Positions 1,723-15,080 of a DNA stretch of 60,940 nucleotides are shown in pieces (positions within the stretch are counted from its first letter, which is position 1; each line of letters starts with the position of its first letter). The translations under genes and the position numbers were made by a program. Source of the stretch: Actinopolymorpha alba DSM 45243 (GTDB taxonomy: Bacteria > Actinomycetota > Actinomycetes > Propionibacteriales > Actinopolymorphaceae); NCBI RefSeq assembly GCF_000373925.1, contig NZ_KB892774.1:1-60940 (forward strand), written 5' to 3'. A model generated the notes under the pieces. The model did not search any database. It saw only the letters and a list, made by a program, of their open reading frames with translations, and was not told the DNA's origin.

Positions 1723-1804
1723 CGTTTAATCACGCGAAATCTCACCGGGAGCTGTGTAGAGTCCTGCCCCAAGGTCAAAGACCTCGGTTTTGGAGGTGGT
1801 TGCC

Positions 1805-1852
1805 ATGTCGCGTTCGACACGTGCGGTGCCGCCTCGTCGTCGTAGCTCCTAG
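1805..1852 (+). CDS. 15-aa peptide ORF upstream of twin ABC exporters
   Basis: ATG at 1805 is preceded by a strong GGAGG (1792-1796) with 8-nt spacing and opens a frame encoding MSRSTRAVPPRRRSS, then TAG. The peptide is very basic (five Arg) with a Pro-Pro pair and no Cys. It ends 78 nt before the first exporter gene, and a hairpin lies between them. It could be a translated leader controlling the exporter operon, or a tiny secreted or modified peptide that is the exporters' cargo. No modification enzyme is next to it. Translation is supported only by the ribosome site and context. Confidence 0.45.
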   Translation: MSRSTRAVPPRRRSS

Positions 1853-1881
1853 CGCCTCGATCGATCTGGGCCCGACACCTC

Positions 1882-1908
1882 ACGTGCTCCCCTTTTGATC
1901 AAGCACGT
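1882..1908 (+). promoter_or_regulatory. Inverted repeat in the exporter leader
   Basis: ACGTGCT (1882-1888) and AGCACGT (1902-1908) form a 7-bp perfect stem with a 13-nt loop. It lies between the 15-codon ORF and the AAGGAG site (1918-1923) of the exporter gene, where it could affect initiation or be an operator. No U-tract follows, so it is unlikely to be a simple terminator. Confidence 0.4.
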
Positions 1909-1930
1909 ATCGAGGTGAAGGAGACCGCTG

Positions 1931-3823
1931 TTGCTTGCTGTTCTGGCGTACGGATATCGCGTCGCTCGTGGCTACCTTCTGGTGGCCGTGGCATGCGCCG
2001 TACTGGGTTCGCTCACTGGGGTGGCATTGCTCTATGTGACCGGACTCGTGATCGGATCGGGTGCTCGGATCGCCACTGGTTCGGGTGCTGAGCTCACGTC
2101 GTTCTTCCGGCTGGTCACGCTCCTCGTCGCCGCATTTCTGGCGAACTCCGCGCTCCCACTTCTTCAAAGTCATCTGACTGCCGCACTGCGCGCGACCGCG
2201 GAGGCCGCGACCGATCTCGCGCGGTTGGAGCCGTTCGTGCGTCCCCGGGGAGTCAGCCATCTTGACGACCCAGGCGTGCACAACCTCTACGCCGCCTCAG
2301 CGGGGGTGGGGTGGACCTCGATCAGTCTGGCGCTCGCATCGCAGGTCGGTCTTATCACCACCCATCTGTCGCTGGCCGGGATCTGTCTGCTGATCGGATC
2401 GCTCTACGCCTGGTGGTACGCCGTCCTGCTGGTCGTGGTCACGCTGCTGATAGAAGCCTGGCTCGCACGCCTGCGCAGGGTCGAGAGTGCTGTCTGGGCT
2501 GGCGACACCGAGGGACAACGACGCGCAGATTATGTGTTCGACCTCGCCATGGGCCGATCCGCCAAGGAGCTAAGGGTCTTCGGCCTCGCATCCTGGTTGA
2601 CCGGGCGCTACGTCGAGACCTGGAACTCGACCATCGCGATGGTTTGGAACGCGCGGAGGCGTTCGGCGGCAATCACGACCGTGGCGTTCATCGGGTACCT
2701 GGCAATCCTGCTGTTCGGGGTAGTGAGCTGTATCAATGCCGCCACGGCGGGAGACCTGACGCTCACGCAGGCCAGCACCGTCATTCCCGCTCTCCTGATG
2801 GCACCTAACACGATTGGCGCGTCCATGATGTGGGACTCCGGCCTGGGCAGCGGCCAGACCGGGCGGCAGGCGCTGCGCGCCCTTCAAGATCTCTCCGCCA
2901 AGGTCGACCATTCGTCGCATCCCGCCGCCGCATCCACATCCCTTCCTTCCTCAGCTCGCGTTTCGTCCACTCTGGGTGAGGCCCTTCCTTGGAATGACCC
3001 GATCGAGATCGTCCTGGAGGATGTGAGCTTTCGTTATCGCCACCAGGATCGCGATGTCCTACGCGGGCTGTCATTGCGGATCGCGCCTGGGGAGCGGCTC
3101 GCCCTGGTCGGCGTCAACGGCGCCGGAAAGTCCACCATTGTCAAGCTGCTCGCCGGTGTGTATCACCCGACGTCTGGCCGGGTGTTGGTCAACGGCATCG
3201 AACTGACCGCACTGAGCGATGCGGACCTCTCGCGCTGGCAGGCGCGCGTTACCACCATCGCGCAGGACTTCGTGCGACTTCCCTTGTCTGTCACAGAGAA
3301 CGTCCTGCTGCGATCGGAACGTACTTCCTCCTCAGACCTGCGGCACTCGGCTATCTCCGCAGCGCGAAGATCAGGTGCTGCGGCCTTGCTGGAGGGGCTC
3401 TCCCGTGGTTGGGACACCGAACTCTCGGCGGAGTTCGAGGGCGGCGTTGACCTGTCCACTGGTCAATGGCAACGGCTCGCACTCGCCCGGGCGTTGGCCG
3501 CCGTCGAAACGGGGGCAGGACTCTTGATTCTCGACGAGCCAGCGGCCGCGCTCGATGTCCGCGCCGAAGCCTCGCTTGTTGAACGCTACCTCGACCATAC
3601 GGCCGGAGTGTCTTCCCTGATCATCTCGCACCGGTTCTCCGTCGTACGCCCAGCCGACCGGATCGTCGTCCTCGCGGACGGGCGGATCGCGGAGTCGGGG
3701 ACTCATGACGCGCTGATGGCGTTCGGCGGGGAGTACGCGAACATGTTCACGTTGCAGGCGCAACGGTACGCGCTCGCGCCAACCTCCGGCGACGATTCGT
3801 TGGCAGGAGGGCGCGATGTCTGA
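1931..3823 (+). CDS. ABC exporter half-transporter (permease-ATPase fusion), first of pair
   Basis: A 630-residue type-I exporter half: an N-terminal membrane domain of about six helices (hydrophobic runs near residues 14-40, 55-75, 135-180, 245-290), then a nucleotide-binding domain. Walker A GVNGAGKST is near residue 393, Q-loop 'TIAQDF', signature LSTGQWQRLALARA near 507, Walker B LLILDEPAAALD near 531 and H-loop ISHRF near 565. The start is TTG at 1931 with AAGGAG 7 nt upstream. The signature has T in place of the second G (STGQ), and the partner has SVGQ; QWQ-type signatures recur in actinobacterial lanthipeptide/RamAB-like exporters. It overlaps the next gene by 8 nt, so a heterodimer is expected. 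Substrate unknown. Confidence 0.88.
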   Translation: MLAVLAYGYRVARGYLLVAVACAVLGSLTGVALLYVTGLVIGSGARIATGSGAELTSFFRLVTLLVAAFLANSALPLLQSHLTAALRATAEAATDLARLEPFVRPRGVSHLDDPGVHNLYAASAGVGWTSISLALASQVGLITTHLSLAGICLLIGSLYAWWYAVLLVVVTLLIEAWLARLRRVESAVWAGDTEGQRRADYVFDLAMGRSAKELRVFGLASWLTGRYVETWNSTIAMVWNARRRSAAITTVAFIGYLAILLFGVVSCINAATAGDLTLTQASTVIPALLMAPNTIGASMMWDSGLGSGQTGRQALRALQDLSAKVDHSSHPAAASTSLPSSARVSSTLGEALPWNDPIEIVLEDVSFRYRHQDRDVLRGLSLRIAPGERLALVGVNGAGKSTIVKLLAGVYHPTSGRVLVNGIELTALSDADLSRWQARVTTIAQDFVRLPLSVTENVLLRSERTSSSDLRHSAISAARRSGAAALLEGLSRGWDTELSAEFEGGVDLSTGQWQRLALARALAAVETGAGLLILDEPAAALDVRAEASLVERYLDHTAGVSSLIISHRFSVVRPADRIVVLADGRIAESGTHDALMAFGGEYANMFTLQAQRYALAPTSGDDSLAGGRDV

Positions 3824-5600
3824 GCGGCTGCTTCCGTTGCGTCTCTGGCTCGGCTTCGCGTTCACACCGAGCCCGAAACTCACCTGCCTCCAGCTCCTCC
3901 TGACCGCGGTGCGAGCCCTTGCCCCGTTGGCGGTTCTCGTGGGTCTGAAACTCGTCATCGACGCAATCGCTGGCAGCGATACGGGGTCCGTGCGAATGGG
4001 GACCGGCGTTCTCGTGGTGGGCTTGGCGCTCACCCTTCTCATCTCGCCGATCCTCAATCCCGTTGAGTCCACCGTCAACGACAGAGGCCATGTCCATATC
4101 CATCGCGAACTCATGTCGCTGGTCTCCGGCATACCAAGCATTGACCATCACGAGAATCCCACCCTCGCCGACCGGGTCGCCTACCTGCGTGGCCAGGCCA
4201 GCGACATGAGCTTCATCGCCACCGCTCTGGTCGGAACGATGGTCGCCGTCATGGATGTCGCCGCGACCTTCGCCCTGCTGGCCAGTGTGCGTCTCGAACT
4301 CCTCCTGCTTCCCGTGCTCGGGCTACTCAGGATCTGGTCGGGCAACCTCAACGGACGTTGGCAGCAGGAGGCACGTCAACGGGTCGCAGTACATGTGCGC
4401 AGGCGTACCCTGCTTGGTGACATCGCCCGGGCCTCTCGGCACGGCGTCGAAGTCCGGACCTCCGGGCTTGCTCGGCTGCTTCTCGAGCGTTCCGGGGAGC
4501 TTCTTTCCGCCGAACGGCGGGAGAAGATCCAGGCCAGCTCGCGGGCACTCGGTGTCGAACTGGCCGCACGAGTGGCGTTCGGACTCGGCTATGGCGCCGC
4601 GATCATCTACGTCATCATCCTGGTGCGAAATGGTGCGGCTCCCGCGGGCGACATAGCCCTGCTCGTCCTGCTCGCCACGCGGGTCGATCAGACCGCTGGG
4701 ATGGTGGCCGACCACATTCGCGGCACGTCCGCTACCTGGCGGCTGTTCAAGACCTATGCGGCGTTCGTGACGTATGCCAAGGAGCGTATGGAGATCGGTA
4801 CGGGGCGCGATGCGCCTGATCGGCTGCGCACAGGTATCACCCTGTCCGGCGTGGAGTTCACTTACCCACAAGCGGGATCCACCGCACTCCAGGATGTCAA
4901 CCTCCACCTGCCAGCTGGGAGCACCATCGCGCTCGTAGGCGAGAACGGCGCTGGCAAGACAACGCTGGTCAAGCTTCTCCTACGGCTCTACGAGCCGACC
5001 TCGGGTTCGATCACCGTCGACGGCATGGACCTTGCCGACATTGACACCACTGGATGGCGGACCCGCGTCACCGCGGGCTTCCAGGACTTCGACCGGTTCG
5101 AGTTCCGTGCTATGGAAACCGTCGGGGTGGGAGATCTCGCGCGAATAGGTGACACCAAGGCAATCCAGCAAGCGCTCGACCGCGGCGACGCCACCGCAGT
5201 CGTCGCCCAGCTTGGCGCCGGGCTTGACACTCAGTTGGGTCCGGCATGGTCGGGGGGTGTCGACCTGTCTGTTGGGCAATGGCAACGCCTCGCTCTCGCC
5301 CGCGCGTTCATGCGTACTCACCCACTACTGCTGGTCCTCGACGAGCCCACCGCAGCGCTCGATCCAGAATCCGAACACGCGCTCTTCCAGCGCTTCGCCA
5401 ACGCATCCCGTGCCGCCTCAGGCGATCCTGGTGGCATTACCGTGCTGGTGTCCCATCGGTTCTCCACCGTACGGATGGCGGACCTCATCGTGGTGCTGCA
5501 TGACGGGCGCATTGTCGAGGTCGGTAACCACGAACAACTCATGGCCGCCGCAGGTCACTACGCCGAACTCTTCACCCTGCAGGCGCGCGCATACGCGTAG
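3816..5600 (+). CDS. ABC exporter half-transporter (permease-ATPase fusion), second of pair
   Basis: A 594-residue fused permease-ATPase that starts inside the end of the previous gene (8-nt overlap), implying translational coupling. The membrane domain carries hydrophobic stretches near residues 22-50, 62-80, 128-170 and 248-280. The ATPase part has Walker A GENGAGKTT near residue 375, signature LSVGQWQRLALARAF near 483, Walker B LLVLDEPTAALDPESE near 505 and H-loop VSHRF near 545. Catalytic residues look intact in both halves, so both sites could be active. Together they should export a peptide, lipid or drug; the upstream 15-residue ORF is the only local cargo candidate. Confidence 0.88.
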   Translation: MSERLLPLRLWLGFAFTPSPKLTCLQLLLTAVRALAPLAVLVGLKLVIDAIAGSDTGSVRMGTGVLVVGLALTLLISPILNPVESTVNDRGHVHIHRELMSLVSGIPSIDHHENPTLADRVAYLRGQASDMSFIATALVGTMVAVMDVAATFALLASVRLELLLLPVLGLLRIWSGNLNGRWQQEARQRVAVHVRRRTLLGDIARASRHGVEVRTSGLARLLLERSGELLSAERREKIQASSRALGVELAARVAFGLGYGAAIIYVIILVRNGAAPAGDIALLVLLATRVDQTAGMVADHIRGTSATWRLFKTYAAFVTYAKERMEIGTGRDAPDRLRTGITLSGVEFTYPQAGSTALQDVNLHLPAGSTIALVGENGAGKTTLVKLLLRLYEPTSGSITVDGMDLADIDTTGWRTRVTAGFQDFDRFEFRAMETVGVGDLARIGDTKAIQQALDRGDATAVVAQLGAGLDTQLGPAWSGGVDLSVGQWQRLALARAFMRTHPLLLVLDEPTAALDPESEHALFQRFANASRAASGDPGGITVLVSHRFSTVRMADLIVVLHDGRIVEVGNHEQLMAAAGHYAELFTLQARAYA

Positions 5601-5615
5601 CTATCCACCTTGGCT

Positions 5616-6116
5616 TTAGAGGTCCTTCCGCATCAGTGTGCACATGGTTTCGTAGTGCTCGATGGTGCCGTCTGGGCGTTGCTGATCCCAGGACTCCAGC
5701 TGGCGTCCGAATGCGACGTAGCCAAGGCGTTCATACAACGCCCGCGCCCGCGGGTTGTTCTCCTCCACGTCGAGTTCGGCGGAGCACAACCCGCGGGCAC
5801 GGATGCGGTCCTCCGTCGCACCAATGAGGAAGGTACCGATTCCGAGCGATTGGAACTCGGCGCGTACGGCGAACTGCGTGAGTGATCCGGCGCCGGGCTT
5901 GGTTTCGTAGTCGATGCCGCCCTTCGCCACACTTGCTCCTGAAGGAATACAGACCACCAGGTAGTCGACTACTCCCACGCGGGCACGCTTCAACTGCCCT
6001 GCCATGTTCTCGATGTGGAGCGGCGAACCGGACCAAGCCAGTCCAGGAAGATCGTCGGTCGTCATGTCACGTACGGTCAGAGTGAGCTCGAGCACGAGCG
6101 TCTTCTCCGCCACCAT
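5616..6116 (-). CDS. GNAT family N-acetyltransferase
   Basis: A 166-residue GNAT acetyltransferase. The acetyl-CoA motif A is seen as FAVRAEFQSLGIGTFLIGA (Q-x-x-G-x-G) about two thirds in, followed by LDVEENNPRARALYERLGY, the standard N-x-x-A-x-x-L-Y-x-x-x-G-F/Y end of the fold. It probably acetylates a small-molecule or protein amine; the acceptor cannot be inferred. The start at 6116 (ATG) is chosen to include the first beta strand; MTTDDLPGL about 17 codons later is an alternative. The gene lies tail-to-tail with the exporter pair and diverges from the HNH gene. Confidence 0.8.
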   Translation of the reverse strand: MVAEKTLVLELTLTVRDMTTDDLPGLAWSGSPLHIENMAGQLKRARVGVVDYLVVCIPSGASVAKGGIDYETKPGAGSLTQFAVRAEFQSLGIGTFLIGATEDRIRARGLCSAELDVEENNPRARALYERLGYVAFGRQLESWDQQRPDGTIEHYETMCTLMRKDL

Positions 6117-6356: not shown

Positions 6357-7697
6357 TTGAAATGGCCTCTTTCGGGCGGGGTTTTGTCGGTGGTCGCCGA
6401 TAGTGTTCCGGTTATGGATGTCACGACTGGCGCCCCGCCCACGCAGCCACTGCGCGGGTTACTGGATATGGTTCAGGACGGGCTTGCTCAGGCGTTGAAC
6501 TCCCCTGTCTGGTCACGTACGGACGCCGAGTCTACTGACGGGCTGCAGCAGGCACACCAGATCGTCGCTATGGCTGAGGCATTACGGCTGCGGCTCATCC
6601 ACGACGCTGACACGCGCGAACTCGCCTCCCAGGCGGGTGCGACGTCGACGGCTGCGTGGCTACGGCACAAGCTGAAGCTGCACCCCTCCACTGTCGGCGC
6701 GGATGTCAAGCTCGCCAAAGCGCTGGAGACCAACCTTCAAGCCACCGGACAAGCTCTTGCCGCGGGAAGGATCTCAGCGCTGCACGCCAAGATCATCCGC
6801 GAGTCGATCAACCTTCTGCCCAAGGACATCAGCGACGACCAGAAACGCGAGGGTGAAGCGCGTCTACTGCAGTTGGCGACCCGCCACGATCCGAAAGAGT
6901 TGCGGCAGTTGGGCATCCACCTCTACGAGACGATCGACCCCGAAGATGCTGAGCGGCGGCTGGGTGAGCAGTTGGAGCGGGAACGCAAACGCGCCGAGCA
7001 GAAGCGATCCATCACCTTCTCCCACTCCGGTCCAGGTTTGCAGTCCGCCCGCGTGCAACTGCCCACCGACGAAATGGCCCGGCTCAAAGCACTCCTCGAC
7101 CCGCTGGCCAGACCACGGAAGACGGACGCGAACGGGCCTGATACCCGCACCGCCTCCCGCCGCCTGGGCGACGCCTTCGTCGAACTCCTCGACCTTGCCC
7201 TCGCCGCCGGTGAAGCGCCCACGCGTGGTGGGACGAAGCCACAAATCATCATCACCATGACACTGGCCCAACTCGTCACCGGAATCGGCTACGCGACACT
7301 CGACAGCGGTGAACAGATCTCCGCCGAAACCGCGAGACTCCTGGCCTGCGACGCCGACGTCATCCCCGCCGTCCTCGACGGCAAAGGCCAAGTCCTCGAC
7401 CTCGGCCGCACCACCCGCTTCTTCACCGCCGCCCAACGCCACGCCCTAGGCATCCGCGACGGGATGGAATGCAACTTCCCCTCATGTGACCGCCCCGCCA
7501 AATGGTGCGATGCCCACCACATCACCCATTGGGTCGACGGAGGCCGAACCGACCTCAACAACGGCGTGCTGTTGTGCGGTGCGCACCACAACCTCATCCA
7601 CAACAGCGACTGGCAAGTCCGCATGGGACCAAACGGCAGACCCGAATACATACCCCCACCCTGGATCGACATCAACCAACGCCCCATCCGGACGTAA
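6357..7697 (+). CDS. DUF222/13E12-type protein with C-terminal HNH endonuclease domain
   Basis: A 446-residue protein typical of actinobacterial DUF222-HNH families. The N-terminal two thirds is the helical DUF222 domain (AWLRHKLKLHPSTVGADVKL...). The C-terminus holds an HNH nuclease with zinc-type cysteines: CNFPSCDRPAKWCDAHHITH near residue 371, then GGRTDLNNGVLLCGAHH near 400. These genes are numerous and mobile in actinobacteria; many are thought to be selfish or defence-linked, but the role is unproven. The TTG at 6357 gives the longest frame; ATG at 6414 (MDVTTGAPP) is an equally good start because neither has a strong ribosome site. C-ended codons are very marked in the 3' half. Confidence 0.85.
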   Translation: MKWPLSGGVLSVVADSVPVMDVTTGAPPTQPLRGLLDMVQDGLAQALNSPVWSRTDAESTDGLQQAHQIVAMAEALRLRLIHDADTRELASQAGATSTAAWLRHKLKLHPSTVGADVKLAKALETNLQATGQALAAGRISALHAKIIRESINLLPKDISDDQKREGEARLLQLATRHDPKELRQLGIHLYETIDPEDAERRLGEQLERERKRAEQKRSITFSHSGPGLQSARVQLPTDEMARLKALLDPLARPRKTDANGPDTRTASRRLGDAFVELLDLALAAGEAPTRGGTKPQIIITMTLAQLVTGIGYATLDSGEQISAETARLLACDADVIPAVLDGKGQVLDLGRTTRFFTAAQRHALGIRDGMECNFPSCDRPAKWCDAHHITHWVDGGRTDLNNGVLLCGAHHNLIHNSDWQVRMGPNGRPEYIPPPWIDINQRPIRT

Positions 7698-7876
7698 TTC
7701 GATCCGGCAACACACATTTCCGGTTGCCACCCGTGCGACCTGAACCGGACCAGGCGCTTGCCAGGAATAGATTTGACGTTGCACAGTGAGGAACTCAGCA
7801 TGGCGGGATCGGCCCAGCGCCGGCCGGATTCACTGGACCGGCGAGCTTTGGAGCTCGGCTGGAGGGGATGGTCAAG

Positions 7877-9103
7877 ATGCGTCGGCGGTTGCTGCCCGCA
7901 GGTCTTATCGGCGTACTCGCACTGGCCATCACCGGACCGTCCACCATGGGATCCGCAGCCGCATCAGACCGCCCCGCCGCCATCAGCCCCGTCGCCGCGG
8001 GCGAATCGCAAACGACCAGGACCCTACTCACTGGCACCGTCTCCCTCTATCCACGTGTCCTCCGCCTCCAGCATTCCGGCCCTGCCAACGGACGGATCAT
8101 CGCGAGTGTCGTCACGTTCACCGCTCGCGGCGGCGAGGGGGCGATCCTCGAGAGCGTCGACGACGGTCGCAGCTTCCATCAGGTCGGCGCGATCCCAGCA
8201 TCAGAGCAGGCGGGGACGAACGGCCTGTGCTGCGCCAGCATCATCGAGCTTCCCCGGCAGGTGGGTAACCTCGCCGCCGGGACACTTCTGTGGGCAGGCA
8301 GTGTCGGCGCCGACGCCGGCCCGGATCGGCGGATGACCCAGCGAGTCTGGCGGAGCAGCGATCTGGGCAGGACGTGGACGTATCTTTCCACCTGCGCAGA
8401 GTCACCCAATGCCCGTGGCATGTGGGAACCCGAGCTGTCCGTCGATGCGTACGGTCGACTGGTCTGCCATGTCGCTGATGAGTCGGAAGGCCCGGCGGGC
8501 AGCCAACAGCTTGTGCGTACGGTCTCGACCGATGGTGTGACATGGAGTGCGAAGCAGGTCAGTGTGCTAAGCCGCGCGGGTGCGTTCCGCCCGGGAATGC
8601 CGATCGTACGCCGGCTGCCCAGCGGCAGGTACGTGATGATCTACGAGATCTGCGGCGTTCCAGGTCAGTACGACTGCGCGGTGTACTCGCGAACTTCGCC
8701 CGACGGCACGGACTGGGGCGACCCAGCCGACGCAGGGAAGCGGATCGTGAGCGCGACCGGACGGTACTTCAGTCACACCCCCACAATAGCGGTGGTTCCG
8801 CGCCCCGGACGCGAGCCGCGGCTGGTGCTGGTCGGCCAACTCCTGCAGGAGGCCGATGGCCGGCTCGCCGCTGGTAACGGCGCAACGCTCATGATCAACG
8901 AACGCGGCGGGCAAGGGCCGTGGCGGGAAGTCGCCGCACCAGTCGCCGTCCCCGGCGCGTACAACAACTATTGCCCCAACTACAGCTCAGCGCTCCTTCC
9001 CTCACCCGACGGCCGCAGCATCCTGGAGATCGCCACCGACTATGCCGAGGACGGCGTGTGCAAGGCGTACTTCGCGACCGGCCGCCTCACGGGAGACCGG
9101 TAA
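7877..9103 (+). CDS. Secreted sialidase-like (BNR/Asp-box) beta-propeller protein
   Basis: About 408 residues with a Sec signal peptide (MRRRLLPAGLIGVLALAITG, probable cleavage after the following Ala-rich stretch). The mature part has several Asp-box-like turns, S-x-D-x-G-x-x-W/F: ESVDDGRSFHQV, RSSDLGRTWTYL, VSTDGVTWSAK and TSPDGTDWGD. These mark the blades of a sialidase/neuraminidase-type propeller. The family includes true exo-sialidases and many uncharacterised secreted glycosidases; a catalytic Arg triad could not be assigned, so activity is unproven. GGAGG at 7861-7865 fits the ATG at 7877 better than the one at 7868, which it abuts. It is convergent with the MFS gene. Confidence 0.75.
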   Translation: MRRRLLPAGLIGVLALAITGPSTMGSAAASDRPAAISPVAAGESQTTRTLLTGTVSLYPRVLRLQHSGPANGRIIASVVTFTARGGEGAILESVDDGRSFHQVGAIPASEQAGTNGLCCASIIELPRQVGNLAAGTLLWAGSVGADAGPDRRMTQRVWRSSDLGRTWTYLSTCAESPNARGMWEPELSVDAYGRLVCHVADESEGPAGSQQLVRTVSTDGVTWSAKQVSVLSRAGAFRPGMPIVRRLPSGRYVMIYEICGVPGQYDCAVYSRTSPDGTDWGDPADAGKRIVSATGRYFSHTPTIAVVPRPGREPRLVLVGQLLQEADGRLAAGNGATLMINERGGQGPWREVAAPVAVPGAYNNYCPNYSSALLPSPDGRSILEIATDYAEDGVCKAYFATGRLTGDR

Positions 9104-14504: not shown

Positions 14505-15008
14505 TCAGTGGAGCCAGCGGACCTTCTCAAGGTCGGTGGTGAGCTGGACGTTCTTCCAGGCCTCGAACTCGCGGGAGCCATCGCTGGCGGCATAAAAGGT
14601 GAGCAGAGCCGGTCCGTGCCGGCGTTGAATGCGATCAGCTGGATTCCCAGCGGAGCAGCGTGACTGCTTCGCGTTCGCGTACTCAACGCACAGCACGATG
14701 ACGGGCAGCCCGTTCTCAGGCTTCCCGTGATCGGTCAGAAAGGTGACTTCGCGAGCTTCCACTCGCAAAGGCTCTTCGAGGCTGGCATCGCCGAACCTGT
14801 AGTAGCGGCCGAACTCATATCCAGGCGGGAGCTCGACGGGCAGAACCATCGTGATCCCAGGGACCTGATCCAGCTCGGCGGCAACGGTCTCGCGTTGATC
14901 GAGCGACGGAGGGTTATCAGTCGGTCGCAGGTTGGCCAGCATGAAGACCAGGATCACAACGACCGCCGCCAGGTGTGGCGGAACACGGACGCGACGCGAC
15001 TGATTCAT
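14505..15008 (-). CDS. Membrane-anchored hypothetical protein
   Basis: Starting at ATG 15008 gives 167 residues: MNQSRRVRVPPHLAAVVV then a single hydrophobic segment (AAVVVILVFMLANL), followed by an extracytoplasmic domain with two Cys (LCVEYANAKQSRCSAG) that could pair. It ends FEAWKNVQLTTDLEKVRWLH. Many actinobacterial small anchored proteins look like this; I do not recognise a family. The start at 15080 would add an unlikely Cys/Arg-rich stretch, so it was not used. Confidence 0.6.
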   Translation of the reverse strand: MNQSRRVRVPPHLAAVVVILVFMLANLRPTDNPPSLDQRETVAAELDQVPGITMVLPVELPPGYEFGRYYRFGDASLEEPLRVEAREVTFLTDHGKPENGLPVIVLCVEYANAKQSRCSAGNPADRIQRRHGPALLTFYAASDGSREFEAWKNVQLTTDLEKVRWLH

Positions 15009-15080
15009 GGCGCGATCATGACAGAATCGACGCCCGCACGGGCAGGAACGCCAGCACCGCGCCCCAGTCGGCGGCAGCAC

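Follow-up and report, generated by a model that had tools for sequence, protein, structure and literature searches.

A candidate leader open reading frame ahead of a two-gene ABC exporter in Actinopolymorpha alba

Introduction

The closest described parallel to the locus reported here is bmrB of Bacillus subtilis, a 53-residue leader open reading frame (ORF) that precedes the two-gene exporter bmrCD. Translation of bmrB is needed for lincomycin-inducible expression of bmrCD, and rare codons in bmrB raise basal readthrough (PMC4191407). A Streptomyces study describes ABC-F genes preceded by upstream ORFs (uORFs), which can be as short as MLV and have ribosome sites that overlap anti-terminator hairpins (PMC12421871).

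We analyzed a 60,940-nucleotide stretch of Actinopolymorpha alba DSM 45243 (contig NZ_KB892774.1, positions 1 to 60,940; hereafter the window), in which a 15-codon ORF stands ahead of two overlapping genes for ATP-binding cassette (ABC) half-exporters. We propose that the short ORF is a cis-acting leader ORF (uORF) that tunes the exporter operon to ribosome behavior, a reading drawn from sequence comparison to which we give a probability of about 0.6. The locus has two of the features expected of a uORF: a short ORF with its own ribosome site lies upstream of the gene and is conserved with it at three of four orthologous loci, all three in one genus. The ORF, the ribosome site and the bases of a hairpin predicted to mask the Shine-Dalgarno (SD) sequence of the ORF are kept as one block ahead of the pair in these three genomes. 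Searches of the openly licensed literature listed no published account of the locus and no paper for the genus name together with ‘leader peptide’; in the part of that literature covered, no leader-ORF-controlled membrane ABC exporter was found in an actinobacterium.

Results

The short ORF and the exporter pair

An earlier note on this DNA had described a 15-codon ORF with a strong ribosome site, followed by a hairpin and two overlapping half-exporter genes, and each of these elements was confirmed in the sequence. The features of the ORF and of the pair are as follows.

1792..1798, + strand: Shine-Dalgarno GGAGGTG of the short ORF (from the sequence; invariant in all three species)
1805..1852, + strand: short leader ORF MSRSTRAVPPRRRSS, with its TAG stop at 1850-1852 (from the sequence; counterparts in genomes G001 and G002)
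1918..1923, + strand: Shine-Dalgarno AAGGAG of exporter gene 1 (from the sequence)
1931..3823, + strand: ABC half-exporter 1, 630 residues, TTG start (ORF list, family searches, orthologues)
3452..3472, + strand: ABC signature LSTGQWQ of half-exporter 1 (from the sequence)
3816..5600, + strand: ABC half-exporter 2, 594 residues, with an 8-base overlap with gene 1 (orthologues next to those of gene 1 in G001, G002 and G006)
5265..5285, + strand: ABC signature LSVGQWQ of half-exporter 2 (from the sequence)

The 15 codons (1805-1849) open with an ATG placed 6 bases after GGAGGTG, and 78 bases separate the TAG from the TTG of exporter gene 1. A short ORF with a strong SD (8-50 codons, at most 250 bases upstream) was present ahead of one of 22 larger window ORFs that were tested, namely exporter gene 1. 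The combination of GGAGGTG, ATG or GTG and a short ORF occurs three times in the window when both strands are counted; the two other occurrences, at 399 and 16962 on the minus strand, both lie within larger ORFs. Judged by sequence comparison, the short ORF is not a product of chance, since the same ORF is found at the same position in two other genomes.

Each half-exporter matched Pfam ABC_tran far above the cut-off, with lesser AAA-type matches, and the Walker and signature motifs of both look intact by eye. With two adjacent genes that each encode an ATPase domain, Walker motifs and a signature, the pair resembles an ABCB-type heterodimeric exporter. At E ≤ 0.001 Pfam gave no membrane-domain (ABC_membrane) match in either protein, and we therefore use the label ‘ABCB-like’; hydrophobic segments are plain by eye. 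In NCBIfam the best matches were to exporters of the MsbA and HlyB types, with scores that fell far short of the curated cut-offs, and those that extend into the membrane part were likewise below cut-off. Solved relatives, searched for with half-exporter 1 only, were ABCB exporters matched mostly through the ATPase part. On these sequence features the locus encodes an orphan pair of ABCB-like half-exporters. A search of the A. alba genome itself with half-exporter 1 gave 18 matches (E ≤ 1e-60), a large paralogous set.

Counterparts in orthologous loci

Close orthologues of half-exporter 1 were present in four of eight family genomes, own genome included: A. alba, G001 (67%), G002 (A. pittospori, 68%) and G006 (70%), the last belonging to another genus and G002 to the same genus as the window genome. 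The best matches in the remaining four genomes were at 40-47%. Half-exporter 2 directly follows half-exporter 1 in all four orthologous loci, and the short ORF precedes the pair in three of them, reading MSRSTRAVPPRRRSS in the window, MSGSTSAVPPRNSR in G001 and MSGSTSAVLPRRNR in G002. Both of the latter start with GTG and have the same GGAGGTGG and spacing as the window copy. The alignment of the three copies is gap-free between the ribosome site and the end of codon 9, and they share the peptide core MS-x-ST-x-AV-x-PR. The description ‘Arg/Pro-rich’, given to the peptide in the earlier note, suits the Arg run of the window copy only and does not hold as a conserved trait. The same note had named orthologous pairs without a conserved short ORF as a refuting outcome; one of the four pairs, that of G006, lacks the ORF and three carry it. 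The exporter start of G006 (locus L005, around 1500) has no SD by eye, as if leaderless, and several paralogues in the genus look similar.

Gene order around the loci was compared by tblastn (E ≤ 1e-8) with ORFs of at least 80 codons, using the first 20 kb of the window against 17-19 kb at each of the other loci. Because only 1.9 kb of the window precedes the exporter, the upstream comparison covers 1.8 kb of it. The segment from the leader through the exporter pair was the only part common in position across the compared flanks. The leader is thus kept with the pair while the flanks differ, which argues for a link between the two.

Conservation of the leader at the nucleotide level

Invariance was scored as three-way invariant columns in an alignment of the window copy, G001 and G002. 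The SD and spacer were invariant in 13 of 15 columns and the region from the start into codon 10 in 22 of 29. The next six columns, which include a three-base gap, held three invariant positions, and the last ten before the stop held one; the TAG was invariant throughout (3/3), and 16 of the 25 columns after it were invariant. Codons 2-9 of the short ORF were invariant at six of eight sites for each of codon positions 1, 2 and 3. The corresponding values for the exporter gene (616 codons) were 0.72, 0.79 and 0.41. G001 and G002 are close to each other (84% for the exporter protein).

With no third-position freedom in the short ORF, the peptide alone is insufficient to account for the conservation; by this comparison the nucleotides of the leader are constrained, in a test that is weak, with three sequences of which two are close. 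The third-position substitutions, on which the earlier note would have based a coding test, gave no coding signature in the short ORF, three sequences having little power.

The conserved block could on these counts be a purely nucleic-acid element, either a hairpin of the RNA or a site in the transcribed leader that a protein binds, with the ORF being incidental. The equal invariance of the three codon positions, the conservation of the untranslated SD and spacer and the value of 0.41 for exporter third positions all fit such an element, as does a partly palindromic core, TGTC-N6-GACA. However, a purely nucleic-acid element would leave unexplained the full SD at good spacing, the start kept through ATG and GTG, the in-frame length difference and the in-frame TAG that is invariant after a divergent stretch with one invariant column in ten. 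These features of the sequence favor translation of the short ORF, and we regard an incidental ORF as rather unlikely.

The counts also bear on the suggestion in the earlier note that the ORF might encode a very small exported peptide, whether a signal, a bacteriocin-like peptide or the precursor of a ribosomally synthesized and post-translationally modified peptide (RiPP), with the exporter pair carrying it as substrate. The adjacency of the exporter is in keeping with this suggestion, and the conserved first 11 residues followed by 3-4 variable ones resemble a leader-core layout. The conservation, however, reaches into untranslated bases and third positions, G006 has the pair without the ORF, and no export signal was seen by eye (no predictor was run). 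Pfam detected no N-terminal C39-type peptidase domain in either half-exporter. A Pfam scan of 13 flank proteins, none of them from G006, found no member of a RiPP enzyme family known to us, with a GNAT acetyltransferase and APH-type phosphotransferases nearby. The lack of a fused C39 domain and of RiPP enzyme families in the scanned flanks, together with the nucleotide-level conservation, therefore makes a secreted product very improbable. Of the earlier alternative of leader or exported peptide, the first half is supported, with the ORF accompanying the pair at three of four loci and no other gene of the compared flanks kept in position. A RamA/RamB-like lanthipeptide exporter, which is similar in layout, was also considered and set aside, without sequence comparison.

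A hairpin predicted to mask the ribosome site of the short ORF

The leader-ORF reading is joined by a predicted local structure in which the ORF folds back on its own start.

1793..1835, + strand: predicted hairpin P1, in which codons 9-11 of the short ORF pair with its SD and codon 5 pairs with its start codon (folding, synonymous-codon test)

P1-type pairing was predicted in all three copies. In local folding of the P1 piece, 6 (window), 0 (G001) and 10 (G002) of 200 shuffles folded at least as well. We then held the peptide fixed and drew synonymous codons at the frequencies found in 22 ORFs of the window (10778 codons); 7, 4 and 43 of 1000 draws (window, G001 and G002, respectively) masked the SD at least as well, with ordinary total folding energy in this test. 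ACA, which makes up 8% of Thr codons, and CCT, 7% of Pro codons, are both rare and invariant in all three copies, and in the predicted fold these are the codons that pair with the start and the SD. We tentatively suggest, from these models, that a self-masking uORF of 14-15 codons, whose own codons, two of them rare, would build a hairpin controlling its initiation, might sense stress in initiation or early elongation and switch a two-gene membrane ABC exporter, a specific proposal that we consider doubtful as it stands.

The distal leader and a possible switch

A second structure is predicted between the short ORF and the exporter.

1876..1917, + strand: predicted hairpin P3, just before the exporter SD (folding of 1870-1935; inverted repeat 1882-1888/1902-1908)

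The segment 1870-1935 folded better than most of its shuffles (2/200 at least as good, z -3.1), and the entire leader, 1780-1945, was not unusually folded (z -0.57, 55/200 shuffles). The distal hairpin of G001 lies around the exporter ATG itself and that of G002 precedes a 24-codon insert ORF, each with z -1.4. Codons 7-11 of the G001 ORF can pair forward (14 nucleotides, 86%) with a segment that shares two bases with the 5’ arm of the distal hairpin; in G002, codons 7-8 can do so (7 nucleotides, 100%), with an overlap of four bases. An ORF that pairs either back to its own SD or forward to the 5’ arm of the distal hairpin would give a switch, and the modeled pairings of G001 and G002 have the anatomy of one. 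When a ribosome was simulated at the start of the short ORF, the exporter site of the window copy opened from 0.31 to 0.51.

The spacing of the leader raises the possibility that the short ORF merely aids exporter translation, as an accessory initiation site, an open leader or by re-initiation, with no sensing involved. Its stop lies 67-127 nucleotides ahead of the exporter start across the three copies. G002 has in addition a second ORF of 24 codons, MRLCSVLPSFPRRRLCSTLLAGGC (L032, 5927-6001), which begins where the G001 exporter starts and whose end overlaps the exporter start as TGATG; it has the appearance of an insert that would couple translation. The SD of the short ORF, however, is predicted to be masked rather than open, which would be odd for an enhancer, and we consider a simple translation aid improbable.

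Returning to the leader ORF as a sensor of ribosome behavior, a number of results weigh against this reading or against parts of it. No base pair of P1 showed changes on both sides among the three copies, which share ancestry, and the masking measure was picked after the fold was seen. Shuffles of codon order masked the SD as strongly in 15/200 (window), 4/200 (G001) and 87/200 (G002) cases, G002 being ordinary in this respect. The distal hairpin of the window copy is unlike that of G001 and G002 in sequence, and no forward pairing of the kind described above was found in the window copy. Masking of the exporter start did not exceed that of spacer shuffles (67/200, 107/200 and 68/200 at least as good). 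The simulated ribosome at the ORF start brought no clear opening in G001 (0.18 to 0.12) or G002 (0.20 to 0.23), and with a mid-ORF ribosome the exporter-site value of the window copy depended on settings (0.20 vs 0.48). A pattern scan of the leaders revealed no intrinsic terminator. The orthologous pair of G006 stands without the short ORF, and the translation and transcription of the leader, like its inducer, are putative. Given exporter-site masking within the range of shuffles, clear opening in the window copy only and the lack of a terminator by scan, we put forward the leader ORF with fair confidence and the particular switch only as an inference, the least certain step of the model.

Occurrence of the leader beyond the three loci

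Searches for further copies placed the observed reach of the leader, as far as sequence searches extend, within one genus. Neither a motif search nor inspection by eye showed the short-ORF arrangement at any of 25 paralogous exporter loci (a partial one, L017, omitted). A degenerate codon pattern built from the three copies matched 3 of 293 genomes of the order, at one place each and all at these loci, with 0 matches for a reversed control. At a cut-off of E ≤ 0.001, a covariance model from the same copies matched only three of 391 genomes of the order, at the same three places. The pattern and the model match the three loci by construction, and these searches therefore show only the lack of further copies. 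Among 394 genomes of the class, a sample without G001 and G002, the model gave a strong match in the own genome only and seven other places in six genomes at E 0.03-0.08, a chance-level number; four of the seven (L071, L077, L072 and L074) showed no arrangement of SD, start and short ORF by eye, L071 and L077 being near-identical repeats in one genome. In the family, at E ≤ 1, the model returned the three leaders with E-values no higher than 1e-15, plus eight other places at 0.09-0.92, and a looser DNA pattern (at most 3 mismatches) found the three leaders in the 8 genomes plus 10 places with 2-3 mismatches.

The exporter protein found nothing beyond the own genome among the 394 class genomes at E ≤ 1e-170 or E ≤ 1e-125, in a search that scored 3 candidates per genome and may miss mid-range relatives. 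The sole close relative in a wider contig search was A. pittospori; the other 17 of the 18 loci were at 27-48% identity, confined to the ATPase part (query residues 357-610). Plasmids gave no exporter match at E ≤ 1e-60, and viral contigs gave no match to the DNA pattern.

Other features of the leader and its surroundings

One further element may lie ahead of the short ORF.

1757..1762, + strand: possible -10-like box TAGAGT (by eye, weak; counterparts TAGCGT in G001 and TATCGT in G002)

A consensus scan of the leader found no promoter, and Rfam gave no family at gathering score. The region ahead of the leader, 580-1800, is a long stretch without a convincing gene in the ORF lists; a gene, or what is left of one, may lie on the minus strand there, although the one frame given, 727-1360, has 6 stops.

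The GNAT acetyltransferase gene adjoins the pair on the opposite strand (5616-6116), and downstream of the pair there is a DUF222/HNH endonuclease-type gene (6357-7697), of a family that is often multicopy in actinobacteria. A small protein encoded at 14508-15080 resembles three ORFs of G001, among them one that lies some 0.8 kb upstream of the exporter there, and a BNR gene at 7868-9103 resembles a G002 ORF about 6 kb upstream of the exporter. In both G001 and G002, Pfam identified two kinds of protein upstream, an APH-type phosphotransferase and, as a weak match, an AAA-type P-loop protein; the tblastn flank comparison did not link these genes of the two genomes to each other.

Discussion

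In the model that we favor, ribosomes would load slowly or stall on the short ORF, either in the presence of a ribosome-targeting drug or through slow decoding at the rare codons. The slow or stalled ribosome would change the folding of the leader that follows, and this would free the exporter ribosome site or let transcription proceed beyond the leader; the exporter would then remove the compound, and the peptide itself would be functionless after release. A leader that proved to be a sensor would indicate the compounds to which this orphan exporter responds. It would also provide a compact expression switch, responsive to drugs, from an actinobacterial genus that has been little studied, and would bring to Actinobacteria a mode of control, by a leader ORF over a membrane ABC exporter, that is known from BmrCD.

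Other interpretations of the short ORF were tried and rejected. A degraded N-terminus of the exporter would place the ORF in frame with it, which is the case in the window (126 nucleotides) and not in G001 (112) or G002 (172). The macrolide +X+ arrest motif is present as RRR in the window copy and as RNR in G002 and is absent from G001, and RAPP-type arrest motifs were not matched. Sensing of Arg was rejected because the Arg run is not conserved.

The comparison with known systems suggests that the leader is probably a further example of leader-ORF control already known elsewhere, rather than a secreted peptide. As in BmrB-BmrCD, a two-gene ABC exporter operon (a multidrug exporter in the case of BmrCD) is immediately preceded by a small ORF, with rare codons and with alternative stem-loops, which here are predicted pairings; unlike the 14-15 residues found here, with no terminator by scan, BmrB has 53 residues and an intrinsic terminator within its coding region (PMC4191407). 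The likeness is one of layout, and a like function is putative. The are5sc and tiaA uORFs share with our locus a very short leader ORF (3-9 residues in their case) and a ribosome binding site that overlaps a hairpin, regulatory there and predicted here, and stalling there takes place at the uORF start; they differ in that terminators and anti-terminators are predicted and in that the genes under their control encode ABC-F ribosome protection factors instead of membrane exporters (PMC12421871). The leader of A. alba is by these comparisons at most a candidate drug-sensing attenuator, one that plausibly works like the known leader-ORF systems.

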